Shown in pieces: positions 2,565 to 37,760 of a DNA stretch of 37,827 bases. The stretch lies in the IMG/VR virus record IMGVR_UViG_3300008450_000149, positions 1 to 37,827 of that record. One strand, written 5' to 3'. The stretch comes from a virus. The position numbers and the translations under genes were made by a program. Numbering within the stretch: the stretch's first letter is position 1; each line of letters starts with the position of its first letter. The notes below the pieces were generated by a model that saw nothing but the letters and a program-made list of their open reading frames with translations, was not told the DNA's origin and did no database searches.

Positions 2565-4560
2565 TAACGAGTTCTCCGGCGCGATGGGCAAGCAAGGCGG
2601 GGAAATATCCGTCGAGCGTGCGCGTGCGTGGGATTACTATATGTCCAAGCCCCTTGGGAACGAGGAGGACGGGCAATCCCAGGTTGTAACCTCAGACGTG
2701 GCGGATATTGTCGATGGCATTATGCCTTCGCTGCTTCGATTGTTCACGGTGGCGGATAACCTGATTGCCTTTGACCCTGTAGGATTTGAGGACATAGCGC
2801 AATCTGAGCAAGAATCCGACTTTGTGACGCATATCTTCTTCAAGAAGAACCCCGCGTTTATGATTCTTTACACGTGGTTCTTTGATGCCCTTGTGCAAAA
2901 GAACGGCATTGTGAAGGCGTGGTATGACGAAAGCGAGAGAGTAACAACCGAGACTTACTCAGGGCTGACTCAGGCGCAACTGTTCGCCCTGCTGGAAGAT
3001 GATGAACTCGAACCCGTCGAACGGTCCGAATCATTCGACAATCTTACCGGCGAAGTGCTGCACGATATTGAAGTGAAGCGCGTCACCAAAGAACCGCGAT
3101 TCATTGTTGAAAACGTCCCGCCCGAAGAATACCGAATCTCCTCAGATGCCCGCACGCTTGACCCCTCATCCGCTCGCATGGTCGGACAAGAGAGGGACAT
3201 TGCACGCTCTGATTTGCTGGCTATGGGCTTTGATGCTTCTATCGTTGATATGCTCCCGGCAGTCGGTAGGGCGGACGACACGGAAGAAAGAACCGCACGA
3301 TACGACAAGACCGACGAAGAAGAACGCGGCACGAATGACGCCTCGCAAGACTTGATTCGAGTGCGCGAGGTTTATATCCGTTGTGATTACGAAGGCAAGG
3401 GGCGTTCTGAACTTCGGCAAGTTTTCGTTTCTGGCAATTACGTTCTGTCAAACGAACCGGCAGACCGTCAGCCATTCCACGTTCTTAGTCCTAAGCCGCT
3501 CCCCCATAAACACTTCGGATCGTGCCCTGCTGAAGCCGTGATGGACGTTCAGCGAGTCAGCACTACTCTATTGCGGCAGACTCTGGATAACCTGTACCAC
3601 ACGAACAACCCCGGCCATGCAGTATGGGAGCAGGGCATAGGTGATAACACCCTAGATGACTTGCTGACCCGCAAGATTGGCGGCGTTACTCGATTTAATC
3701 GCCCGGTGGCTGAGTCTTACTCGCCAATGACAGTGCCCTTCACGGCTGGCGCGTCATTCCCCATGATCGAGTATTTCGACAAGGTGAAGCGTGACCGCAC
3801 GGGCGTGCATTCTGACGCCGAAGGGCTGTCACCTGACCAACTGAAGAACATTCAAACTTCAGTCATGGGCCAGTCTATGGACTTGGCGCGGATGAAGATC
3901 GAGGCCATTGCCAGAATCTTCGCGGAAACCGGTATCAAGTCGCTGTTTATTCACTTGCACGAATTGATCCAGAAGCACCAAACCAAAAAGCAGATTGTGC
4001 GCCTTCGCAACGATTGGGTAGAAGTGGACCCGACATCATGGCGTGACCGCTACGATGTGACGGTAAACATCGGCCTTGGTATCGGCAGTCGTGAACAGAA
4101 CAATATGCACCTTGCTGCGATCAAAGACCTACAGGCGACGATTGTTCAGAATGGCGGCATGAATCTACTGGTGACCCCGAAGAACATCTATAACACGGCG
4201 GCAGAGTTTGTCAGAAACGCAAACCTGAAAGACCCGGCGCTATTCTTCACCGATCCTGGCGAAGAAATGGCTCCTCCGCCCTCAGATGAACAAATACAAA
4301 TGCAGCAGAAAGAGCAGGCGCTTCTCGAAAGGCAGCAAATGCTGGATGCTCAGTCTCAGGCGCTCAAAGAACAGAAGATGCAGCTTGATTATCAGATTGA
4401 AGTGGCGAAACTCAGAGAGCAGTCAACTAAGAATGAGAACGACCTGACTGTTCAGATGGAAGGGCTACAGAACGAGCTTCTTGAATTGAAACTCAAGTAT
4501 AACCAGCCCGCCGAGCCTAAAAAACTGAGGTTTAACGCTGAAACCGGGGAAATTGAGTAA
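2524..4560 (+). CDS. Portal protein
   Basis: Dodecameric head-tail connector at the capsid vertex through which DNA enters and leaves. The 678-aa length and the N-terminal region DIVDGIMPSLLRLFTVADNL, followed by QESDFVTHIF and a long core ending in a glutamine- and lysine-rich coiled coil (about residues 570-650), match large podovirus portals of the P22-like type. I start at ATG 2524, which has AAGGA eight bases upstream; an in-frame TTG at 2476 would add 16 residues without a ribosome site. It follows the packaging genes directly and ends in a TAATG overlap with the next gene, consistent with terminase-portal-scaffold-capsid order. Confidence 0.88.
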   Translation: MPKMDERDLLALIDNEFSGAMGKQGGEISVERARAWDYYMSKPLGNEEDGQSQVVTSDVADIVDGIMPSLLRLFTVADNLIAFDPVGFEDIAQSEQESDFVTHIFFKKNPAFMILYTWFFDALVQKNGIVKAWYDESERVTTETYSGLTQAQLFALLEDDELEPVERSESFDNLTGEVLHDIEVKRVTKEPRFIVENVPPEEYRISSDARTLDPSSARMVGQERDIARSDLLAMGFDASIVDMLPAVGRADDTEERTARYDKTDEEERGTNDASQDLIRVREVYIRCDYEGKGRSELRQVFVSGNYVLSNEPADRQPFHVLSPKPLPHKHFGSCPAEAVMDVQRVSTTLLRQTLDNLYHTNNPGHAVWEQGIGDNTLDDLLTRKIGGVTRFNRPVAESYSPMTVPFTAGASFPMIEYFDKVKRDRTGVHSDAEGLSPDQLKNIQTSVMGQSMDLARMKIEAIARIFAETGIKSLFIHLHELIQKHQTKKQIVRLRNDWVEVDPTSWRDRYDVTVNIGLGIGSREQNNMHLAAIKDLQATIVQNGGMNLLVTPKNIYNTAAEFVRNANLKDPALFFTDPGEEMAPPPSDEQIQMQQKEQALLERQQMLDAQSQALKEQKMQLDYQIEVAKLREQSTKNENDLTVQMEGLQNELLELKLKYNQPAEPKKLRFNAETGEIE

Positions 4561-22009: not shown

Positions 22010-22258
22010 ATGTCCACCGAACGCATAAAAGCCCTTGAAATATATCACGAAAATTCGGTAGAAGTAGAAAAAGACACTCGGGACAGGTTAGCAAGGATTG
22101 AACAGAAAATCGACGGGATTGAAACCACGTTGGCAAGCCAGCGGGGATACATAGCCGGGGCAATGTCGGTGATTGTGCTGATCTGGTCCGGCATCGTGGC
22201 CGTGGTTGTGGCGGTTTGGGATACGATTATAGAGCGATTTCAGGATATGTGGCTGTGA
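22010..22258 (+). CDS. Holin-like membrane protein
   Basis: An 82-aa protein: soluble charged helix with RLARIEQKIDGIETTLASQ (about residues 27-44), one strongly hydrophobic segment (AGAMSVIVLIWSGIVAVVVA, about 49-68) and a short charged tail. It directly precedes and overlaps the lysozyme gene (GTGA), the standard place for a holin or a lysis-timing membrane protein. The ATG at 22010 has GGAG nine bases upstream; an upstream GTG at 21980 would add ten residues. Holin function is inferred from topology and position; no defined holin family was recognised. Confidence 0.65.
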   Translation: MSTERIKALEIYHENSVEVEKDTRDRLARIEQKIDGIETTLASQRGYIAGAMSVIVLIWSGIVAVVVAVWDTIIERFQDMWL

Positions 22259-22671
22259 ATATCTCAATGCTTATAGAGTCAATACGGAAACACGAAGGGC
22301 TGTCCCTTGTGCCGTACAAGGACACGGAAGGGCATCTGACTATCGGCTATGGCAAAAACTTGGACGCCGGAATATCTCTGAGACAAGCCTATCTACTCCT
22401 AGATTCCGACATTGAAGTCTGCATGATTGAGCTGGACAAAGGATTCCCAGGCTGGCGCGAACATCCCGAACACGTTCAAAACACGCTGATTGAAATGCAG
22501 TTCAACCTTGGGCGGCCTCGATTGGCTAAGTTCTCCAAATTCTGGGCTGCGCTGAATAACGACGACTACGAAACGGCAGCAAAGGAAATGCTCGCAAGCA
22601 AGTGGGCGCAACAAGTAGGCCAGCGGGCCATCACTCTATCCAAGCAACTAGCAGAAGGATTCGCGCAATGA
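22255..22671 (+). CDS. Endolysin, T4-type lysozyme (GH24)
   Basis: Cell-wall muramidase for host lysis. The catalytic triad of GH24 is visible: E14 in KHEGLS, D23 in YKDTEG and T29 in HLTIGYG, with the normal E-x8-D-x5-T spacing (numbered from GTG 22255). The later NTLIEMQFNLG and AAKEMLASKWAQQVGQRA match the C-terminal lobe. 138 aa is a compact lysozyme. Start GTG 22255 overlaps the holin-like stop and has AGGAT upstream; ATG 22267 is an alternative that drops four residues. No signal peptide, so export would depend on the holin. Confidence 0.9.
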   Translation: MNISMLIESIRKHEGLSLVPYKDTEGHLTIGYGKNLDAGISLRQAYLLLDSDIEVCMIELDKGFPGWREHPEHVQNTLIEMQFNLGRPRLAKFSKFWAALNNDDYETAAKEMLASKWAQQVGQRAITLSKQLAEGFAQ

Positions 22672-23149: not shown

Positions 23150-23428
23150 TCACTTTCTGCCACTTTCCGTCCTGCGATAAAGCCACATACCCGACCAGCT
23201 ACCAAGCCATCCGCCTGTGCCTGCCGCAAAGCCTAGAATCAGGATTCGCTCATACCCGTTCGCTATTACATCCGCTATTCCTACGCCTAGCCCTGCATAT
23301 TCCATGTAAGCCATGAGATAGCTAAATGGCGGAATCATCAACCATCGGAAGTTTGCCACGTTCAACTGCTGAAACGACTTCCCAAGTACAAAGAGGTACG
23401 TTGTCAGCAGCACTACAACGGGAATCAT
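23150..23428 (-). CDS. Small integral membrane protein
   Basis: A 92-aa protein with about three hydrophobic segments: residues 1-20 (MIPVVVLLTTYLFVLGKSFQ), about 28-50 (RWLMIPPFSYLMAYMEYAGL) and about 62-85 (ILILGFAAGTGGWLGSWSGM), ending in a basic tail RRTESGRK. It is coupled to the DUF3310 gene by one base. Topology with short loops fits small phage membrane proteins of unknown role. A second holin or an inner-membrane modulator is possible but not shown. Confidence 0.7.
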   Translation of the reverse strand: MIPVVVLLTTYLFVLGKSFQQLNVANFRWLMIPPFSYLMAYMEYAGLGVGIADVIANGYERILILGFAAGTGGWLGSWSGMWLYRRTESGRK

Positions 23429-26133: not shown

Positions 26134-27369
26134 CTAGCCTTCTGCGGCTTGTTTTAATTCATCTGAAAATATGTTCCAGTTCTTTCGGCGCCTTTCCATC
26201 AATTCCGTGTACTTCTGGTATGCGCTAGTTTTTGTCGGACTAAATCCAAGGTACTTGCACCAGTAGTCATTCTTCAAAAGCGTTTTGCAAATCCTTCTCC
26301 AGCTTGGGGCTTTCCCGGTGTTCTCAATCTTCAAATCTACCTCGTCCGGTATTCCTTCTGGATAGCCCCTAGACTGCCACCATTTCAGGTAAACAGCAAT
26401 CTTGTTTTTGTAGTGTTGCGAAGTTTTTGGGGGCGTAGATTGCAGCAAAGACAATGCAAAGCTCTCCCACGTATGCCCGTCAGGAAGCGTTATTGTGTGA
26501 TTGCCCATGACGTTTCCGCGCTCGTTGGCGTAGACCTTGCCAGTGTTAGCGCCATTCACTCGCAGCACCAGCTTTGCCCATGTAAGCGGCTCTACAACCT
26601 GATACAGCCAAAGACCTTTTCGGGATTCGTCGCCAAACGGCTCGCATATCCGCATTTGATGAATAGTCATGCCAGCCTGGTGCATCCGGTCATATAACTT
26701 GTTGTGCTGCTTTCCACTGTTCGCGTGGTATCTCCATATGTCCTCGGTCTGCCAGTCGTAAATCGGGTACACGTTCCACACATCTTCAACCACGTTGGTT
26801 GTGTAGTGCTTGCCGCCATACATTGGTTTTTCTCTGGAAAGAGAGCGAAACCTGTTCAGGCTTTCTTGAGTCCTTATCCCAACAAATGCAGCACATTTTT
26901 GTCCTTGCGCGTACCATTGGCCGAATGTCGGCACAAATTCCTCAAACATAATGCCGTCATACCAAAACGGGAATGTTTCAGGGTCGGTTATGCTGATTGG
27001 ATCAGGCTGCCGCACCCACAAATTCTTTTTGTCCTGATCCCATGACTTCCACTCAGGCTCGTGCATTGAGCAGGCATTCCACGTTTTGATGGGGACGGCC
27101 ACCCAATACGGCTCTATGCAATCGGCGTATTCCTCAAAAATATGCTTGGCAAAGTCAATCGTAAGAGAAAATTGCGCTTCCCAATCCAGCATAAACAAGC
27201 CAATCTTTCTGCCGCGTTTTCTGGCTTCTTCGCACACAAGGTGAACCATAACGCCGCTGTCTTTTCCCGCTGAAAAGCTGCAATATATGCGCTCAAATTC
27301 ATCAAACGTCCACGATATTCTTTCTTGCGCTGCCGTTAAAACATCTTTCCCCAAGTATCTTTTAGGCAT
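26134..27369 (-). CDS. IbrA-like PAPS-reductase family protein (DUF3440)
   Basis: A 411-aa protein of the PP-loop ATP pyrophosphatase/PAPS-reductase superfamily, DUF3440 branch. The PP-loop variant SFSAGKDSGVM is at residues 31-41; further family segments are FVGIRTQESLNRFRSL, VYPIYDWQTEDIWRYH and RICEPFGDESRKGLW. In E. coli, IbrA acts with IbrB to switch on immunoglobulin-binding surface proteins; relatives include DndC of the phosphorothioation systems. Here it is in the early operon with an IbrB-like partner two genes upstream. Whether it adenylates, modifies DNA or regulates is not known. Confidence 0.85.
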   Translation of the reverse strand: MPKRYLGKDVLTAAQERISWTFDEFERIYCSFSAGKDSGVMVHLVCEEARKRGRKIGLFMLDWEAQFSLTIDFAKHIFEEYADCIEPYWVAVPIKTWNACSMHEPEWKSWDQDKKNLWVRQPDPISITDPETFPFWYDGIMFEEFVPTFGQWYAQGQKCAAFVGIRTQESLNRFRSLSREKPMYGGKHYTTNVVEDVWNVYPIYDWQTEDIWRYHANSGKQHNKLYDRMHQAGMTIHQMRICEPFGDESRKGLWLYQVVEPLTWAKLVLRVNGANTGKVYANERGNVMGNHTITLPDGHTWESFALSLLQSTPPKTSQHYKNKIAVYLKWWQSRGYPEGIPDEVDLKIENTGKAPSWRRICKTLLKNDYWCKYLGFSPTKTSAYQKYTELMERRRKNWNIFSDELKQAAEG

Positions 27370-27742
27370 TTTTGCTTCTCCAAAGCTCTATTGCTTCTTC
27401 TGCTTTCTTGTTGGCTTTCTCTTGCTGATCTGGCGTTAAATGGCCCCACGCAAGCCTGACAATATGCTCAGGACAATTTATCGCAAGCGCCACGGCAGCA
27501 TGACCTATCCACGGGCGCTTGTCACCTGATTTTGTAAGATTATGCTGGCAAGAATACTTCCATTGCTCGGTGACTCTGAGCATCCATTCGCCATACAACT
27601 CTGCATCGCCAGTAAACTCAATTGCTATCCTGAGCCATGTGCCTTTTCTGGATACATCTCCCCACATGGCGCTTTTGAATTCTTCCAGCATCCACCACGG
27701 ATGCCATATCTCGCCAGCGCCAGGTTCTTTCTCAGTTATCAA
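27362..27742 (-). CDS. Conserved protein linked to IbrA/IbrB-like genes
   Basis: A 126-aa protein starting with ITEKEPGAGEIWHPWWMLEE, rich in Trp and His, with WLRIAIEFTGDAELYGEWML and AAVALAINCPEHIVRLAWGH. It lies between the IbrB-like and IbrA-like genes and overlaps both, so it is probably the third member of a functional set. Aromatic and His residues could form a small enzyme or adaptor, but no catalytic motif is clear. The HPWW and LAWGHLT motifs are easy to search for. Confidence 0.72.
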   Translation of the reverse strand: MITEKEPGAGEIWHPWWMLEEFKSAMWGDVSRKGTWLRIAIEFTGDAELYGEWMLRVTEQWKYSCQHNLTKSGDKRPWIGHAAVALAINCPEHIVRLAWGHLTPDQQEKANKKAEEAIELWRSKNA

Positions 27743-28403
27743 GAATGTCTACTCCTTCAACTTCCTCAAATGTTTCAGCTTCCCACGCCTCGCTAAACTC
27801 TTGGTCTGCAAACAATCCAGCCAGCCCCGTTACCTGAGTCAATCTAAGCACCTCGTCAGGCTCCATGCCAAGCTCTTTGGATATTTTTTCATCTGACCAG
27901 AACCGGCGCTTAAGCTCAATTACAATCTCAGACATTGACTCTACGCGATGCTCTCCACGCGCTCGATTGTGGCGAACAGTAGCAGCCATACGGCTTCCGC
28001 GATCTTCCTGAGACTCTTTAATTCGAACGACCGGCAAGTATCCGTGGACGCGCTCCCGAACATCGGCGCATTCTTTCCCGACTCGGTTTCTGTGGAATCC
28101 GTCAACCACGGTGCGCTTATCCCCGTCCGGCATAGTAACGATTGGCTGAGTGTAGCCATCCGCCATAATAGAAACGCGCAGCAATTCCATTTCAGGAGGC
28201 GCTACGCTGTTTGGGTTGTAGTCATTGGCCTGCACATCTTCTGCTTTGACCCACTCCACAAAATCAACTGGCTCGCTTCTAAATGGGCTGTGCAAGTGTA
28301 GCGCGGCTCTAATGCGGTTTATTGCATCAACTTTTTCGTCTTGCAGCATAGCTGGCAGCAGGCTTTCCACTTCCATAATTATTTTTTGTAGTGCTTCTTG
28401 CAT
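27732..28403 (-). CDS. IbrB-like ParB-family protein
   Basis: A 223-aa protein related to IbrB and ParB/Srx-type domains. Characteristic parts are SPFRSEPVDFVEWVKAEDV, ANDYNPNSVAPPEM, DGYTQPIV, VVDGFHRNRV (residues 99-108, the ParB-type nucleotide-binding motif) and RHNRARGEH, followed by a helix-turn-helix region with SDEKISKELGM. I start at ATG 28403, which has GGGAG eight bases upstream; an upstream ATG at 28433 adds ten residues. Even so it overlaps the preceding gene by 77 bases. Acts most likely with the IbrA-like protein. Confidence 0.82.
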   Translation of the reverse strand: MQEALQKIIMEVESLLPAMLQDEKVDAINRIRAALHLHSPFRSEPVDFVEWVKAEDVQANDYNPNSVAPPEMELLRVSIMADGYTQPIVTMPDGDKRTVVDGFHRNRVGKECADVRERVHGYLPVVRIKESQEDRGSRMAATVRHNRARGEHRVESMSEIVIELKRRFWSDEKISKELGMEPDEVLRLTQVTGLAGLFADQEFSEAWEAETFEEVEGVDILDN

Positions 28404-28623
28404 TTCTTGGCTCCCATATTCTTTTGCATTCATCTTCCACCATTCCCCGCAGCCCAATCGTCACTCTATCAAGCTGCGCCCGTCTTGTGTCTTTCGGTAA
28501 CAGTAGCACCTGCTTTGCGAGGTTGTAAACAGATAAACGCAGCCATGATTGAACTGCGTCATCTGCTTCACTCGGTAGCATCTTTCCCGATAAGATTGCT
28601 GCTAGTTGCTCGGATGGCCGCAT
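28327..28623 (-). CDS. Hypothetical protein upstream of ibrB-like gene
   Basis: A 98-aa helical, basic protein with VYNLAKQVLLLPKDTRRAQL and MVEDECKRIWEPRNAR in its central part, then a low-complexity tail rich in Ser, Lys and Tyr. The LPKDTRR and EDECKRIWE motifs look conserved in small phage proteins of recombination operons. It overlaps the IbrB-like gene by 77 bases in another frame, so both cannot be free to change there. Function not recognised. Confidence 0.65.
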   Translation of the reverse strand: MRPSEQLAAILSGKMLPSEADDAVQSWLRLSVYNLAKQVLLLPKDTRRAQLDRVTIGLRGMVEDECKRIWEPRNARSTTKNNYGSGKPAASYAARRKS

Positions 28624-30207: not shown

Positions 30208-30236
30208 TTTACACTAGATATTGTGCGCGGTATCAT
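30208..30236 (+). promoter_or_regulatory. Rightward early promoter
   Basis: -35 TTTACA (30208-30213), 17-base spacer, -10 TATCAT (30231-30236). Spacing is ideal. It serves the replication and recombination operon beginning at 30345, with a leader of about 100 bases. Confidence 0.7.
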
Positions 30237-31297: not shown

Positions 31298-32648
31298 CCT
31301 CAGAATTCCCCCGCACTCGATTGACGCCGAAGCTGCGTTCCTGTCTGCTGTGTTTGAGCGGAATACGCTGATTGAGGATTGCGAACAGATTCTAAAGGAG
31401 TCTGATTTCTACAACGGCGCACACAAGGTTATCTACCGGCGAATGTGCGCGATGGCTTTTGCAGGCCAGCCAATTGACCCTATAACGCTTTGCACGGCCT
31501 TGGAGTCAGCAGGCGAGGCACAGGCAGCTAGTTCCCCTGATTACGTCATACAGCTCGCTACAGAAGGACGTGGCGCACATAACGCGATGCACTACGCTAA
31601 GATTATCAGCGAACGGGCAATGGATCGTGACTTGATTTCCAAAGGAGTGATGATTGCCGACCTTGGTTATTCAGACGGCGATCCACTGAGCAAGCTGGAC
31701 GAAGCGCAAAAGATTATGATGGAAAGCGGGCCTTCGTTTGATTCTGAAGTGCAAAGCGGAAATCAGGTATTGCAGGAGACGCTGAAGGAAATTCAACGGT
31801 TAGCATCGCTTCAGGGGGCATTGAGCGGCGTTGCTTCCGGTTACACTGACTTGGACAAGATCACTAACGGATTTCAAGCGGGCGACATGATTGTGGTGGC
31901 CGGGCGGCCCTCGTCCGGGAAAACCACGTTTGCCATGAACTGCGCCGAGGCGGCGATTGACGCGGGTGAATTGGTGCTAGTGTTTAGCCTGGAAATGCCA
32001 GCCCGTCAGCTAATGCTCAGAATGATTTCAAGCCGTGGCCGCATACCATTGGAGACAATCAAGCGAGGCAATGGCGAGGAACAAGACTATCAGCGAATGA
32101 CAGCAGGCGCGGCGAAGATCAAAGACCGGCCAATATACATTGACGACACATCCAGCCTGACTTCCGAAAGACTCCTGAGCAGGGCAAGGAAGCTGCAAAA
32201 GAAAGCCGGGAAGAAAATCGGCATGATAATCATCGACTACCTGCAACTGCTGGCCGACAAGGGCGAAGGCGTGGACAGGGTGACGAAGATAAGCCGGAAC
32301 ATGAAACTTCTTGCCAAGGAGATTGACTGCCCGGTACTTGCTCTTTCTCAGCTATCACGAAAGTGTGAGGAGCGCGGCGACCAGAGACCGATTAGCTCAG
32401 ACCTTCGAGACTCTGGAGCAATCGAGCAAGACGCCGACTTGATCATCATGGCTTACCGTGACGAAGTGGTGAACAAAAACAGCCAGATGCCGGGCGTGGC
32501 TGAATTCATAATCAGGAAACACCGAAACGGCGAATTGGGCACTGTTTACCTAAAAAGTAACTTGCATATTTGCCGGTTTGATAATAATCTCAACTACATG
32601 CCGCCTACCGAATTACCGACCGGGCGCAAGTATAGGAGCATGGATTAA
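31290..32648 (+). CDS. dnaB: Replicative DNA helicase (DnaB family)
   Basis: A 452-aa hexameric helicase that unwinds DNA at the phage fork. The N-terminal domain begins PPHSIDAEAAFLSAVFE (residues 7-23). RecA-type domain: Walker A GRPSSGKTT (205-213), FSLEMPARQLMLRM (about 230-243), Walker B MIIIDYLQLL (about 313-322), SQLSRKCEERGDQRP, SDLRDSGAIEQDADLI, and the final FIIRKHRNGELGTV. All features are complete. It overlaps the DUF1376 gene, its probable loader, and the NinB gene. Confidence 0.95.
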   Translation: MDNLRIPPHSIDAEAAFLSAVFERNTLIEDCEQILKESDFYNGAHKVIYRRMCAMAFAGQPIDPITLCTALESAGEAQAASSPDYVIQLATEGRGAHNAMHYAKIISERAMDRDLISKGVMIADLGYSDGDPLSKLDEAQKIMMESGPSFDSEVQSGNQVLQETLKEIQRLASLQGALSGVASGYTDLDKITNGFQAGDMIVVAGRPSSGKTTFAMNCAEAAIDAGELVLVFSLEMPARQLMLRMISSRGRIPLETIKRGNGEEQDYQRMTAGAAKIKDRPIYIDDTSSLTSERLLSRARKLQKKAGKKIGMIIIDYLQLLADKGEGVDRVTKISRNMKLLAKEIDCPVLALSQLSRKCEERGDQRPISSDLRDSGAIEQDADLIIMAYRDEVVNKNSQMPGVAEFIIRKHRNGELGTVYLKSNLHICRFDNNLNYMPPTELPTGRKYRSMD

Positions 32649-33085
32649 TGGCCGACATTAAGCGCAAAATAGACGACATGGCCGGAGCTGCTGCTGCAAT
32701 GCCGTGGATACAGCAAAACATCATAAACGGGCTGAAGTCGGGGCCGGTAATTGTATCTCTTGGGCGCGAAACAAGATCAGGGGAGCAGAATAACCTCCTT
32801 TGGGCGCTCCTGACCGACATATCCAACCAAGTGACTTGGTTCGACAAGAAACACTCACCCGAAGCGTGGAAAGACATTATCACAGGGTCATTCAAGGGCG
32901 CTGAGTTTGTGCCGAATATCAACGGTGACGGGTTTGTGCTGCTTGGAATGCGAACATCCAAGATGGACAAGCCCACGTTTTCGGCGCTGGCGGAGTACAT
33001 ATTTGCGTTTGGCGCAGATCAATCCGTGGCATGGTCAGACCCATCCCTGGCGGTATTTGAGCAGTACCGGGAGCATAAAGCGTGA
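32648..33085 (+). CDS. ninB: NinB/Orf-like recombination protein
   Basis: A 145-aa protein matching NinB (lambda Orf), a mediator that helps load RecA or Red-beta type recombinases onto SSB-coated DNA. The family pattern is seen in RSGEQNNLLWALLTDISNQV followed by KKHSPEAWKDIITGSF and ALAEYIFAFGADQSVAWS. It is one of the genes shared with the lambda nin region, and stands between DnaB and the methyltransferase with four-base overlaps on both sides. Confidence 0.88.
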   Translation: MADIKRKIDDMAGAAAAMPWIQQNIINGLKSGPVIVSLGRETRSGEQNNLLWALLTDISNQVTWFDKKHSPEAWKDIITGSFKGAEFVPNINGDGFVLLGMRTSKMDKPTFSALAEYIFAFGADQSVAWSDPSLAVFEQYREHKA

Positions 33086-33906
33086 GGATAGACAATGCCA
33101 TTAACACAATGCACCTTTTTGCAGGAGCTGGAGGAGGATTGCTCGCAGACCTTATCCTCGGACACAAACCAATTGTTGCCGTTGAATGGAATCCATACGC
33201 TTGCAAAGTCTTGCGGGAGCGATCACAAGACGGATGGTTTCCAGGCTTGCAAGTGTGGGAAGGTGACGTCAGGATGTTTGATCCATCCGAATACGCCGGA
33301 CAAGTGGATTGCATTCATGCGGGATTCCCTTGCACAGACCTTAGCAGCGCTGGAAAGCAAGCTGGTATCGGCCCGGAAACAAGATCGGGGCTTTACCGTG
33401 AAGTCTTGCGAATTGCTGGGGTATTGGGACGACCAAAGCTATTCTTGGAAAACGTCACAGATATCCTTTCTCTCGGACTCGGAACCGTCATTGCAGACCT
33501 TTCCTCGATGGGGTATGTGGGGAGATGGATGTGTATACAAGCATCCGATTTCGGGGCAAACCACGAACGTGACAGATGGTTTTTGTTTGCCACTACTAGC
33601 GACACCAACGGCAACGGCCAATCAGCTTTCCCCGTCAATGATGAAACACAAAGGGTGTCGAAATCTGGCGCGGGAAATGCTGCCGACTCCAACGGCTCAC
33701 AATTCCAAAGAGGGGGCATATCCATCGGAGCATTTGAGGAACACTCCAACTTTGGCGGCTGTGCTTGGTGGAAAGATAAACCCCCAATTCACGGAGTGGA
33801 TGATGGGGTGGCCAATAGGTCACAGCGCCTTAAAGCGATAGGAAATGGCCAGGTTCCGCTGCAGGCTGCTTTAGCTTTCCGAATCCTAAGCGAGGGGCTT
33901 CTATGA
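33082..33906 (+). CDS. C5-cytosine-type DNA methyltransferase
   Basis: A 274-aa Dcm-like enzyme that would methylate phage DNA against restriction. Motif I HLFAGAGGG (11-19), motif IV GFPCTDLS with catalytic C84, motif VI ENVTD (123-127), motif VIII HERDRWFLF (161-169), then a variable section (175-230) and the motif IX-X ending GVDDGVANRSQRLKAIGNGQ (238-257). PCTD replaces the usual PCQ. It starts with GTG 33082 (GGGAG upstream) overlapping the NinB stop; ATG 33109 is an alternative. A second reading frame, open through nearly the whole gene, has its own good ribosome site and family-like motifs. Confidence 0.87.
   Translation: MRIDNAINTMHLFAGAGGGLLADLILGHKPIVAVEWNPYACKVLRERSQDGWFPGLQVWEGDVRMFDPSEYAGQVDCIHAGFPCTDLSSAGKQAGIGPETRSGLYREVLRIAGVLGRPKLFLENVTDILSLGLGTVIADLSSMGYVGRWMCIQASDFGANHERDRWFLFATTSDTNGNGQSAFPVNDETQRVSKSGAGNAADSNGSQFQRGGISIGAFEEHSNFGGCAWWKDKPPIHGVDDGVANRSQRLKAIGNGQVPLQAALAFRILSEGLL
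33095..33841 (+). CDS. Nested gene in +1 frame of the methyltransferase, family-like motifs
   Basis: A 248-aa frame lying completely inside the methyltransferase gene. ATG 33095 has GAGGA six bases upstream, better than the methyltransferase site. The product shows segments typical of a phage protein family usually annotated as methylase-associated: WIAFMRDSLAQTLAALES, CELLGYWDDQSYSWKTSQ, LQTFPRWGMWGDG, two LPTPTA / LATPTA blocks, and the C-terminal GGKINPQFTEWMMGWPIG. Those motifs (WPTPTA..., NPxFVEWLMGxPxGWT) are recognised from knowledge of the family, so the frame is probably used. Function unknown; a methylase specificity or partner subunit is possible. Confidence 0.68.
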   Translation: MPLTQCTFLQELEEDCSQTLSSDTNQLLPLNGIHTLAKSCGSDHKTDGFQACKCGKVTSGCLIHPNTPDKWIAFMRDSLAQTLAALESKLVSARKQDRGFTVKSCELLGYWDDQSYSWKTSQISFLSDSEPSLQTFPRWGMWGDGCVYKHPISGQTTNVTDGFCLPLLATPTATANQLSPSMMKHKGCRNLAREMLPTPTAHNSKEGAYPSEHLRNTPTLAAVLGGKINPQFTEWMMGWPIGHSALKR

Positions 33907-34475
33907 GAAAATGCCGCCACTGCAAGTCCGAGCTGCCAAGTATAAAGAACTCTGATACATGGGAGCAGGCAGGATTTTGCACTAAAGATCACTACTGGCA
34001 AGCGGAGTTAGAAAAGAAGGCGCACAAGCCTGCAAAAGCAAAGCCAAAGAAGCCAAAGGTTAAGAGCATCGCCCAGGAGCTAGACGCAGCCGCTGTTCTA
34101 TGCCAGCGCATGGTGCGCCTCAAGGCTGCTGACGATAACGGATATTGCAAGTGCATCACATGCGGAGTGTCGAAGCCGTGGCATGAAATGCAAGGCGGGC
34201 ACTTCATTGAGCGCGGGAAGAAAGCAACAAAGATTGATGAAACCAACGTACACCCCCAGTGCCAACAGGATAATGCTTGGGGAATGAAAAACTCAAGCGT
34301 AGTGCTGATATATAGGCAGGCAATGGTAGATATGTACGGACAAGATTACGTTGAAGAATTGATAGCAAGGTCAAGGCAGCCTTTTAAGCCAACTAGAGAA
34401 TGGATAGCCGAGCAAGTAGAGTATTTCAAAGAGCAGATAGACTTCCATGAGAAACGACTAGGGGTAAGCAAGTGA
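33903..34475 (+). CDS. ninG: NinG/Rap recombination nuclease
   Basis: A 190-aa NinG (lambda Rap) protein, a structure-specific endonuclease for D-loops and Holliday-like joints. N-terminal CRHCKSELPS zinc site, KSIAQELDAAAVLCQRMVRL, YCKCITCGVSKPWHEMQGGH with the zinc and nuclease residues, HPQCQQDNAWG and the basic C-terminal helix. All typical sections are present. It overlaps the methyltransferase by four bases and extends the NinB-type recombination set. Confidence 0.92.
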   Translation: MRKCRHCKSELPSIKNSDTWEQAGFCTKDHYWQAELEKKAHKPAKAKPKKPKVKSIAQELDAAAVLCQRMVRLKAADDNGYCKCITCGVSKPWHEMQGGHFIERGKKATKIDETNVHPQCQQDNAWGMKNSSVVLIYRQAMVDMYGQDYVEELIARSRQPFKPTREWIAEQVEYFKEQIDFHEKRLGVSK

Positions 34476-34765
34476 GCGAACGTGCTACAATGACAGCTAT
34501 GATTCCACCAGCCAACGAAGAATTGACGCCAAACGAAAGCCTGCAAGACAAGGAGGCGCGACGATTGCTGATTGCGTCCCTGACTGCTGGCTTCCTTTCC
34601 AACGGGGGCACGATAGAAGTGCTGCCATCCTGCACGTTCTCCCCTGAGCGCGATCTCAAGACACGATCTGACCTTGATCTGCGAAAGAGCAAAGACAAGA
34701 CCGGGCCAAAGTGTCCTATCAAGAAAGCGCCTGATTTTGATCTGCACAAGACGGTGCGTATCTAG
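34472..34765 (+). CDS. Hypothetical protein at the late-regulator (Q-like) position
   Basis: A 97-aa protein with GTG start overlapping the NinG stop (GTGA). Its core, LQDKEARRLLIASLTAGFLS and NGGTIEVLPSCTFSPE, is followed by a strongly basic section (KTRSDLDLRKSKDKTGPKC). No DNA-binding motif is definite. It is the last gene of the rightward early operon, where lambda-type phages carry the late activator; that makes a regulator possible but unproven. It ends on a CTAG shared as stop with the opposite-strand gene. Confidence 0.6.
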   Translation: MSERATMTAMIPPANEELTPNESLQDKEARRLLIASLTAGFLSNGGTIEVLPSCTFSPERDLKTRSDLDLRKSKDKTGPKCPIKKAPDFDLHKTVRI

Positions 34766-35658: not shown

Positions 35659-35886
35659 ATGACCCGCAAACTTCCGGCTGTAATCGCCGCAATATCCCTG
35701 TTGACCGGGTGTACATACGTCCGCTATGACCAAGGCGCACTCACTGTGATTGATCTGCATCCGGGCGGCGAGTCAATAGCCCTAGATGGCGCTTTAGAGG
35801 GCCGTGGGGAGCTTTCCGTCAATCGTGAGCAAGGCAGCAACGCTGAGATAATCGGCGCTGCTGTAGACGCTGCTGTGGGGCTGTAG
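35659..35886 (+). CDS. Small phage lipoprotein
   Basis: A 75-aa predicted lipoprotein: basic N-terminus MTRKLPAVIAAISLLTGC with a lipobox LTGC (C18 lipidated after signal peptidase II cleavage), then a short mature domain with RYDQGALTVIDLHPGG and GALEGRGELSVNREQG. GAGGTGATGAA precedes ATG. It stands alone on the plus strand among minus-strand genes, as expected for an independently expressed 'moron' gene. Superinfection exclusion (as with T5 Llp) or host envelope change is possible but unproven. Confidence 0.72.
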   Translation: MTRKLPAVIAAISLLTGCTYVRYDQGALTVIDLHPGGESIALDGALEGRGELSVNREQGSNAEIIGAAVDAAVGL

Positions 35887-35921
35887 TGATAATCGACTAA
35901 CTCCCGACTATCCATGCAATA

Positions 35922-36110
35922 TCAAAGTTCAACTTCAGAATTGCAAAGTTGACGCGCAGCCCTTGTGCAATGTATCGCCACAAAGTCGGCTAGACTCAAT
36001 CCCTGCACCTTAGCCGCCTTCCTTAGCAGCTCTTTGACTTCAGGCTCTATCCGCATTACGAAGGAAGCTGAACGCTTCTGCGGGCCTTTGTTGGGGCGTC
36101 CGGCGGGCAT
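35922..36110 (-). CDS. Ribbon-helix-helix-like DNA-binding protein
   Basis: A 62-aa protein: MPAGRPNKGPQKRSASFVMR then IEPEVKELLRKAAKVQGLSL, ADFVAIHCTRAAR. The basic N-terminal arm followed by a beta strand (ASFVMRI) and two helices match the ribbon-helix-helix fold of Arc- or DUF1778-type regulators. It overlaps the methyltransferase-like gene (TAATG), so they are likely co-translated. It may autoregulate this operon; the target is not known. Candidate binder of the palindromes near 37000. Confidence 0.72.
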   Translation of the reverse strand: MPAGRPNKGPQKRSASFVMRIEPEVKELLRKAAKVQGLSLADFVAIHCTRAARQLCNSEVEL

Positions 36111-36718
36111 TATAAGTACCCCCATTGTGACGCCATAGCATCGGCAATGCCTTGGAAAGTGGTTGACCGGATTTTCCATCGGTCGGCAGACGGGGGCAAG
36201 TAGTGAAGGCGCTCGCGCTGGTTCTTTGGCAATTGCATCATTTCTGCGTATACGTTGTGAGTCTCGACAAGCGGAGGCAAGCGGTCAAGCCAAAGCCCGG
36301 TTTTCTTCTGCTCCATGTGACCAAACATCCACGGCTGCACATATTGAGCTGGAAGCAATCCGGCAAGGCGAGGAAGAACGCCCACGGGGTTTTCCATACA
36401 GACACCAACGTCTGCAACTGAGATTGCCTTAAGCCATAACTGCTTAGTCCATCCAGCAGAGGCTATGCGCTCGGCGTACTTTGGCTGACCTTCGCCATAG
36501 GTGGAATTTCCCGCAACTGTAAGCGCGGTGCATGGCGGATGCAATATGATGATGTCCCATCGCAGATTGCTCCTGAGAATGTCGTAAATGTCGCCTTGAT
36601 AGTGGTTTTCGCTCTTGTCATCTGCCGGCAATAAGTCGCAACTGACCGCGTGATGGCCTAGCTCGGCAAAAGCGCGTCGAACAGTGCCGGAATATTCGCA
36701 ACCTATAAGTATGTTCAT
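36110..36718 (-). CDS. Second DNA methyltransferase-like protein
   Basis: A 202-aa Rossmann-type protein. MNILIGCEYSGTVRRAFAEL is the SAM-binding start, DIIILHPPCTALTVAGNSTY holds a PPC motif resembling motif IV of C5-methyltransferases, CMENPVGVL resembles motif VI (ENP instead of ENV), and STTFQGIADAMASQWG ends it. There is no target-recognition domain. Phage proteins of this type are normally annotated as DNA (cytosine) methyltransferases; activity is uncertain. It overlaps an RHH regulator downstream. Confidence 0.78.
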   Translation of the reverse strand: MNILIGCEYSGTVRRAFAELGHHAVSCDLLPADDKSENHYQGDIYDILRSNLRWDIIILHPPCTALTVAGNSTYGEGQPKYAERIASAGWTKQLWLKAISVADVGVCMENPVGVLPRLAGLLPAQYVQPWMFGHMEQKKTGLWLDRLPPLVETHNVYAEMMQLPKNQRERLHYLPPSADRWKIRSTTFQGIADAMASQWGYL

Positions 36719-36724
36719 TGTTTA

Positions 36725-36961
36725 TTAACCTCGCATGGATCGCGGCATAAAGTAAGATGCAATGATTTCTGCGGTAGCTGCTACGTCACGGGCGATTGCT
36801 TTGCGTGCTACCACTCCGATTCCGTAGTGTCCCGCGTCATGCCATGCGCCATTTTCAAAATATTGAACGCCTTCTGTTGTGGCTTTGAACCATTTTGCGG
36901 TTCCGTTTGAGTGGTAATGTGTTGCGCCTTCTGGTGCTGTGTTGAAATTGATTTCGCTCAT
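36725..36961 (-). CDS. Small hypothetical protein, first of methylase operon
   Basis: A 78-aa protein starting MSEINFNTAPEGATHYHSNG, with AKWFKATTEGVQYFENGAWH and ARDVAATAEIIASYF. The APEGATHY...G.AKWFK...E....F..G.W pattern is frequent in small phage proteins of unknown function. Strong GGGGAAAGGAA site upstream. It is controlled by a promoter holding a perfect palindrome at 37006-37022. Confidence 0.75.
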   Translation of the reverse strand: MSEINFNTAPEGATHYHSNGTAKWFKATTEGVQYFENGAWHDAGHYGIGVVARKAIARDVAATAEIIASYFMPRSMRG

Positions 36962-36998
36962 TTCCTTTCCCCTAGTGGTTATTTGCTTCAGTGAGTTC

Positions 36999-37026
36999 AG
37001 AATAGCACAATTAGGAATTGTGTAAA
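36999..37026 (-). promoter_or_regulatory. Leftward promoter of the methylase/RHH operon
   Basis: On the minus strand: -35 TTTACA (37026-37021), 16-base spacer, -10 TATTCT (37004-36999). The spacer holds a palindrome, so it should be strongly controlled. Confidence 0.68.
37006..37022. promoter_or_regulatory. Perfect palindrome CACAATT-AGG-AATTGTG, operator
   Basis: A 7-3-7 perfect inverted repeat lying between -35 and -10 boxes of the leftward promoter and overlapping the -35 by two bases, a typical repressor site. Confidence 0.7.
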
Positions 37027-37057
37027 TACATTTCTCAACTATTTGCATTGATAAAAT

Positions 37058-37103
37058 CTATTGATGCTAATAGAAATAAACTATTGACACGGATATTCAA
37101 TAG
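37058..37103. repeat. CTATTGA half-sites around the rightward promoter
   Basis: CTATTGA occurs at 37058-37064 and 37081-37087, and its inverse TCAATAG at 37097-37103. The last two form an inverted repeat overlapping the -35 box of the rightward promoter, so they may bind a late-promoter regulator. Confidence 0.5.
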
Positions 37104-37111
37104 CGTAGTAT
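37084..37111 (+). promoter_or_regulatory. Rightward (late-type) promoter
   Basis: -35 TTGACA (37084-37089), 16-base spacer, -10 TAGTAT (37106-37111). Points to the HNH and packaging genes. A terminator follows about 65-90 bases later, giving a short leader RNA. Confidence 0.68.
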
Positions 37112-37117
37112 TGGAGC

Positions 37118-37207
37118 CTGACTTACCCCACTAGACCCATCGACGCGCCTCGACTCCGGCAGCGATTAGGTCACATAGCCCGGCCACTTGGTGCGGGCTT
37201 TCTTTTT
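37118..37207 (+). ncRNA. Short leader RNA between late promoter and terminator
   Basis: About 90 bases from the predicted start of the rightward promoter to the terminator, without an open frame or ribosome site. Same architecture as the lambda 6S/pR' leader that the Q protein reads through. It has no tRNA arms. Existence is inferred from the flanking signals. Confidence 0.45.
37177..37207 (+). terminator. Rho-independent terminator in late leader
   Basis: AGCCCG (37177-37182) pairs with CGGGCT (37194-37199), loop of 11 bases, followed directly by TTTCTTTTTT. Clear intrinsic terminator for the plus strand, located before the late genes. Confidence 0.78.
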
Positions 37208-37216
37208 TGGTATACT
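37208..37216 (+). promoter_or_regulatory. Possible extended -10 promoter
   Basis: TGG-TATACT immediately after the terminator U-tract; an extended -10 element without a clear -35. It could start low-level late transcription independent of anti-termination. Confidence 0.4.
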
Positions 37217-37240
37217 GCAACCTCAACAAAGGGTTATATT

Positions 37241-37294
37241 ATGGTATGCTCATCTAAAAGCAAGAAAAAAGGCGGCAAAGGGTACGGCAAATGA
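37241..37294 (+). CDS. Tiny basic Lys/Gly protein
   Basis: A 17-aa ORF: MVCSSKSKKKGGKGYGK. AAGGG lies upstream and the stop overlaps the next ATG (ATGA). Tiny Lys-Gly-Tyr peptides of the same kind occur before the HNH/terminase genes in many phages. Function unknown; it may serve only to couple translation. Confidence 0.5.
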   Translation: MVCSSKSKKKGGKGYGK

Positions 37295-37416
37295 GCGGGA
37301 AAGGATCAAAGCAAAGACCTTCACAGATAAGTGCTGAAGAACTACAGCGCAGATGGGAAGCAGCATTCGGAAAGAAGGACAAGCAAGACAAGAAGGACGG
37401 CAAGCCTAAGCAGTAA
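37291..37416 (+). CDS. Small basic conserved phage protein
   Basis: A 41-aa protein beginning MSGKGSKQRPSQISAEELQR and continuing RWEAAFGKKD, with a Lys/Asp-rich tail. The GKGS..RP......E....RW...FG.K pattern is frequent in small phage genes near the packaging genes. It overlaps the 17-aa gene. Role unknown; its basic character suggests nucleic-acid contact. Confidence 0.65.
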   Translation: MSGKGSKQRPSQISAEELQRRWEAAFGKKDKQDKKDGKPKQ

Positions 37417-37442: not shown

Positions 37443-37760
37443 ATGGGCGGCGCACAGCAACTAAAGCACCTCTACAACTCCAAGCGATGGAAGCAACTGA
37501 GACTCCACATACTCAGTAAGCATCCATTCTGCCAATGCCCACACCACAAAGGCAAGCAATACCCCGCCAACGTGGTAGACCACAAGATACCCCATCAAGG
37601 CAATGTCTCCCTGTTCTGGGATAGGTCTAACCTACAGAGCATGGCGAAGGTATGCCATGACCGATTCAAGCAGTCACAAGAAAAGGGCGGCGCTGGCTTC
37701 CTCAAAGGATGTGACGAGCAAGGCATTCCCCTGTCTGATTACCATGAGTGGAATGTATAG
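37443..37760 (+). CDS. HNH endonuclease next to terminase
   Basis: A 105-aa HNH nuclease of the packaging-associated type. LYNSKRWKQLRLHILSKHPF, the zinc Cys CQCP, ANVVDHKIPHQG (HNH His-metal motif), LFWDRSNLQSMAKVCHDRF are all present. In HK97-like phages such HNH proteins directly precede TerS and stimulate TerL cleavage at cos. The ATG at 37443 has no strong site but is the only start that keeps the complete domain. The next gene should be TerS, which is cut by the window end. Confidence 0.88.
   Translation: MGGAQQLKHLYNSKRWKQLRLHILSKHPFCQCPHHKGKQYPANVVDHKIPHQGNVSLFWDRSNLQSMAKVCHDRFKQSQEKGGAGFLKGCDEQGIPLSDYHEWNV

Follow-up and report, generated by a model that had tools for sequence, protein, structure and literature searches.

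The DNA analysed here, called the window (G000 in comparisons between genomes), is the complete 'linear' IMG/VR virus record IMGVR_UViG_3300008450_000149 of an uncultured phage, 37,827 bases long. On the + strand it opens with the gene of the small terminase subunit TerS (2-328; phrog_12559, E 1.3e-16 for the part from 71), whose reading frame is open at the contig start. This is followed by the gene of an HK97-type large terminase, TerL (329-1906, + strand; 62.6% to PAJU2 and 48% to HK97), and by a portal protein resembling those of Pseudomonas phage tf and other podoviruses; the + strand structural genes continue to 19656. A leftward block encodes ERF, YqaJ and a ParB-like protein. At 26134-28457 a PAPS-reductase/DUF3440 protein adjoins a ParB-like protein, a pairing that recalls phage DNA-modification or partition-type modules. 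Isolated amid leftward genes, and far from the late operon, stand a lysozyme gene (22216-22671) and a second + strand ORF (to 23021), while a holin-like gene (23150-23428; phrog_7045, a weak match) occupies the strand opposite to the lysozyme gene.

The rightward replication/nin block extends from 30551 and encodes a DUF1376 protein, a DnaB-type helicase (assigned on the basis of its sequence), NinB, a cytosine methylase, NinG and a protein of 97 residues. Its probable promoter (30208-30236, + strand) has a score of 12.0, the highest promoter score in the window. The nin operon is identified by the NinB/Orf recombination mediator (32648-33085, + strand; PF05772, E 4.1e-29) and by NinG/Rap (33903-34475, + strand; PF05766, E 5.7e-10). 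NinG lies immediately 5' of the 97-residue gene (34472-34765, + strand), which is the last of the operon and thus stands in the place of Q. Small leftward genes separate this block from a putative lipoprotein gene (35659-35886; 75 residues, lipobox-like LTGC), which has no family match and is conserved upstream of the promoter-terminator cassette in all three genomes that carry it.

Between the lipoprotein gene and the cassette, a variable insert on the - strand (35936-37072) encodes a ribbon-helix-helix protein, a DNA methyltransferase and a small gene. It is absent from the related contig G001, where a short stretch joins the flanks. The block CCATGCAATATCAAAGTTCAA, present at least in part in all three genomes, forms the left border of this insert (window 35912-37072), which has its own strong divergent promoter (37026-36999). 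The ribbon-helix-helix protein (35922-36179) was rejected as a candidate regulator, because G001 and G002 yielded no match to it.

A divergent - strand gene block lies upstream of the first promoter of the cassette, P1 (37084-37111, + strand), whose -35 is 11 bp from the end of the variable insert. P1 consists of TTGACA (37084-37089), a 16-bp spacer and TAGTAT (37106-37111), as an earlier note on this DNA had read it, and scores 11.3. After 65 bp from the -10, the stem of an intrinsic terminator, T (37177-37208, + strand), begins; the predicted hairpin, AGCCCGGCC-ACUU-GGU(G)CGGGCU (37177-37199), has a 9-pair stem with a bulge, a folding energy of -13.9 kcal/mol and a U-rich tail reaching 37208, in agreement with the strong terminator described about 65 bases past the promoter. 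Transcription would start near 37118, giving a leader RNA of about 90 nt (37118-37208, + strand). A second predicted promoter, P2 (37188-37216, + strand; score 11.0), overlaps the 3' arm and T tract of the terminator. It has a weak -35 (TTGGTG), and its extended -10, TGGTATACT at 37208-37216, is an exact match, so that the box placed directly behind the terminator by the earlier note is indeed there. Beyond T lie two short + strand ORFs (37241-37294 and 37291-37416, the latter kept in G001) and the first recognised late or packaging gene, an HNH endonuclease (37443-37760, + strand; phrog_2323, E 1.7e-29).

The significance of P1 and T was evaluated over the whole window. When 75,654 positions were scored with a weight matrix based on textbook sigma70 frequencies, only four reached the score of P1, which ranks third, and three of the five top-scoring sites fall within 36999-37216. 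A loose 9-of-12 consensus scan returned promoter matches at chance level (3 found vs 3.4 expected), and it missed T owing to the bulge in the hairpin; the argument therefore depends on how the signals rank, how they combine and how well they are conserved. Outside coding sequence, the + strand holds no other compact terminator as strong as T, and P1 and T form the sole promoter-terminator pair with a gap of 20-250 on either strand, against none in 20 shuffles. An inverted repeat, CTATTGA-N9-TCAATAG, with perfect 7+7 arms covers the -35 and spacer (37081-37103) and is kept in G001; it is a weak candidate for an operator. As a key regulator site it was dropped, because 9% of base-shuffled segments hold a comparable repeat and G002 lacks it.

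The gene order behind T depends on how the contig ends are joined. The record opens with TerS and TerL and closes with HNH, so that the succession of HNH, TerS, TerL and structural block behind the terminator, as described in the earlier note, is seen directly for HNH and deduced for the rest. The break in G001, a contig of 37,030 bases, falls close to that of the window, and this contig reaches 67 and 131 bases past the window's two ends, and HNH-like sequence occurs just upstream of TerL within one contig in L039, L026 and L007. On these grounds the order HNH-TerS-TerL across the joined ends is likely. Many relatives end 400-600 bases before TerL, which would fit cohesive ends.

The arrangement of P1, leader and T before packaging genes is kept in two related virus contigs, G001 and G002 (the latter also L085). 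G001 is 94.8% identical to the window over 37073-37226, and its flanks differ: it lacks the 1.1-kb insert on the upstream side and has another ORF on the downstream side. Within this stretch the leader (37116-37209) shows 1 difference in 94 positions, and the promoter region (37084-37115) differs at 6 of 32, three of them in the -10. The G001 promoter has a 17-bp spacer and AATACT, the -10 having moved by one base, and scores 11.2. Since three of the six -10 bases differ and the shifted spacing nevertheless gives an equal score, selection for a promoter at this position is suggested.

In G002, TTGACA-16-TACTAT (score 11.3) comes after the same lipoprotein gene, but the interval between promoter and terminator is about 460 bp, the leader is unlike that of the window, and an intact tRNA-Gly (TCC) is present. 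The terminator is homologous to T (38 bp, 89% identical), whereas the short ORF, TerS and TerL behind it are all unlike those of the window, TerL being unrelated. No promoter scoring at least 3.5 was found behind T in the stretch scanned, up to 5960, and the packaging genes of G002 may consequently need read-through of T. Across three mosaic genomes, promoter and terminator thus hold their position, whereas leader, terminase and neighbouring sequence vary. In the second half of the G002 contig (about 8790 to 14584), the nin/lipoprotein region recurs as a similar copy in inverted orientation, with the join at GCAATATCAAAGTTCAAATTCGG. Two related phages were probably assembled here into one chimeric contig, and this half served solely to supply a fourth copy of the 97-residue protein and the lipoprotein.

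Further searches did not extend this set. Queries with the terminator pattern, the 97-residue protein and the lipoprotein returned only G001, G002 and two unrelated records among viral contigs, and no further cassette relatives among genome contigs; in phage records the 97-residue protein had no match at E 1, and the cassette DNA gave only short weak matches. The idea that such cassettes generally accompany this terminase family was rejected as well, since, where a locus includes upstream sequence, a promoter-terminator pair is present only in L085, in L039 and, as one distant case, in L026. In L039 (IMGVR_UViG_3300037755_000409), related to the window only through terminase, a compact pair with a gap of 32 (3230-3320) precedes a holin-like ORF, HNH, TerS and TerL, and a 128-residue protein (phrog_11026) ends just upstream of the promoter; this pair and protein could possibly represent an independent late gate and antiterminator candidate.

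The earlier note had described the locus as matching lambda-type Q control. The anatomy, which is kept in both relatives, agrees with this description: a sigma70 promoter, a short leader and an intrinsic terminator stand before late genes that would continue across the contig ends. The description is nevertheless too strong, because neither a -10-like pause element nor a direct-repeat binding element was found. Among the hexamers transcribed early, the best (TAGACC at 37132, lacking the final T) scores 0.8, below the background median of 1.3, and the first 24 bases behind the -10 contain no -10-like element with A2 and T6 common to the window and G001, although a very weak element would escape such a comparison. 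The promoter-proximal pause element proposed for a search was, accordingly, not found behind the -10. The P1 spacer carries the inverted repeat instead of a direct-repeat Q-binding element, and a single non-repeated site would go unseen. For Q proteins and AlpA, both a -10-like pause element and a binding element within the promoter are necessary (PMC9371919, PMC6606751).

No known Q protein was recognised either, in line with the earlier note: the Q families PF06530 and PF03589 have no match in the three genomes, while their positive controls matched. The PF06323 profile gave no match, its positive control being likewise silent, and no antiterminator was found among the proteins scanned. To our knowledge, Q proteins of different families have a common job but no common sequence, and new Q proteins therefore escape homology searches. 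An RNA-based mechanism of the put type with a covarying leader hairpin, suspected from G002, was rejected as well: the leaders are unrelated, folding of the window leader is no better than that of shuffles (z -1.35), and it has no Rfam family match. A shared terminator prefix was likewise discarded as support for a leader hairpin, because the unrelated contigs L104 and L105 carry CACATAGCCCG terminators and the prefix occurs on other hairpins too.

The suggestion in the earlier note that a new antiterminator may exist is plausible, and a candidate can now be named by its position and by a SutA-like motif, namely the 97-residue protein. It is 95-98% identical across the three genomes, and the fourth copy shows 80-81% identity. 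All four homologues match the SutA RNA-polymerase-binding domain (SutA-RBD, PF20661), below the Pfam cut-off (15-17 bits vs 29.3), with an E of 0.015 and of 0.0058 for the best homologue. Among 50 virus records searched, this domain was found in three, which are exactly the three cassette carriers (E 6e-5 to 4e-4 per genome).

The correspondence extends to individual residues. SutA contacts RNA polymerase through K60, R64, L67, M71, F74, L75, G78, G79, V81 and I84, located in helix 57-76 and the following strand (PMC9300723). At an ungapped offset of 33, nine of these ten positions are identical or conservative in the phage protein (K27, R31, I34, F41, L42, G45, G46, I48 and L51), the exception being SutA M71, which corresponds to T38. 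The AlphaFold2 model contains a single long helix (24-43) and little else (local pLDDT about 75, mean 58), and this helix coincides with the SutA helix at the same offset. A fold search with the model gave no useful match, and a sequence search of solved structures gave none. Because the contact residues match without gaps and the helix is predicted, the 97-residue protein may fairly be expected to bind RNA polymerase. Both proteins would thus share a helix-FL-GG-strand binding motif in an otherwise disordered chain; in contrast to SutA of Pseudomonas aeruginosa, the 97-residue protein is phage-encoded, has a basic C-terminal tail and matches the domain only below threshold. SutA exerts its effect at initiation, and no antitermination by it is known (PMC9300723); a role of the 97-residue protein as an antiterminator is a guess from the position of its gene. 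Although this protein is 96% identical between the genomes, G002 departs from G000/G001 in the promoter spacer and start region, and promoter-specific loading is therefore not supported. If it is the factor, it would recognise no conserved promoter site, which fits a SutA-like protein without a DNA-binding domain; otherwise it is not the factor.

Collectively, these observations are compatible with a late-gene gate resembling pR'-tR' that is opened by a non-Q factor, for which the 97-residue protein is the most likely candidate. We put this reading forward tentatively, as quite possible but short of probable. Host RNA polymerase would start at P1 and, unaided, produce only the leader of about 90 nt before T halts it. 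At a later stage of infection, a factor encoded by the phage would carry it past T, so that HNH and, across the joined genome ends, TerS, TerL and the genes up to 19656 would be transcribed. The factor would be the 97-residue protein, made last from the replication/nin operon and binding the beta protrusion of RNA polymerase through its SutA-like helix-GG-strand motif. P1 and T, their conservation, the lack of the tested Q families and the 97-residue protein's motif and gene position are read from sequence, whereas the use of P1 and T, the read-through, the identity of the factor and the junction of the contig ends are what we infer in this model. That a small, mostly disordered protein of this kind, with no recognisable DNA-binding domain, passes a terminator with neither a sigma-dependent pause nor a Q-binding site is, taken by itself, unlikely. 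Besides the missing pause element, direct repeat and Q family, P2 counts against the gate, since in G000 and G001 it could bypass T.

The main competing explanation takes P2 as the late promoter and T as an insulator that keeps transcription started at P1 or in the rightward operon out of P2 and the late genes, with no antitermination. P2 has a score about as good as that of P1, is identical in G001 and lies about 25 bp upstream of the first ORF behind T. However, the G001 region is too similar to reveal selection on P2, matches to the extended -10 pattern with one mismatch do not clearly exceed the chance expectation for the window (40 vs 32), and both the timing of the late genes and the conservation of P1 would be left unexplained. 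G002, moreover, has T without P2, and for this reason the gate is somewhat favoured over P2 as the late promoter, which we consider somewhat unlikely.

A separate small-RNA or tRNA unit is suggested by the tRNA-Gly between P1 and T in G002 and by the high conservation of the leader between the window and G001, where it could be a leader-sized RNA or a remnant; the late genes would then be controlled elsewhere. Yet the window leader has neither an Rfam match nor distinctive folding, T adjoins the packaging genes even where these are replaced, and those of G002 would be left without a promoter in the scanned stretch, which makes this explanation decidedly unlikely. Very unlikely, in our estimate, is a constitutive P1 with partial read-through at T setting a low level of late-gene expression, perhaps raised by a SutA-like activation at the initiation step and involving no dedicated antiterminator. 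The bulge in the hairpin would allow some read-through, and SutA-like proteins, acting at initiation, could make P1 more productive with no antitermination involved (PMC9300723). The 9-pair stem and U-rich tail, however, predict efficient termination. Furthermore, phages usually control when structural genes amounting to about 17 kb are expressed.

Compared with the lambdoid pR'-tR'-Q systems (lambdaQ, 21Q, 82Q), the locus shares a strong sigma70 promoter, a short terminated leader with the late genes behind it, and a candidate factor encoded last in the nin operon. It differs in having no Q family match, no -10-like pause and no direct-repeat Q-binding element (the direct repeat being that of 21Q), and in the second strong promoter directly behind the terminator. 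Whereas the lambda late operon starts with lysis genes, none is seen directly behind P1, the lysozyme gene lying elsewhere. In the AlpA/tB system of Pseudomonas aeruginosa the terminator is similarly placed, 54 nt behind the promoter there and about 60 nt here (PMC7969949, PMC9371919). AlpA, in contrast, is predicted to contain a winged-helix DNA-binding motif and works with an ABE and an obligatory -10-like pause; for the candidate of the window, a largely disordered chain with a single long helix is predicted.

The cassette, known from three related genomes, is real and conserved, with a lambda-like layout. If P2 is the late promoter, the case is an ordinary one. It represents a Q-like architecture without the known parts, with one named small-protein candidate that seemingly borrows a host RNA-polymerase-binding motif, and it bears on whether antitermination works without a DNA-bound loader and a sigma pause.
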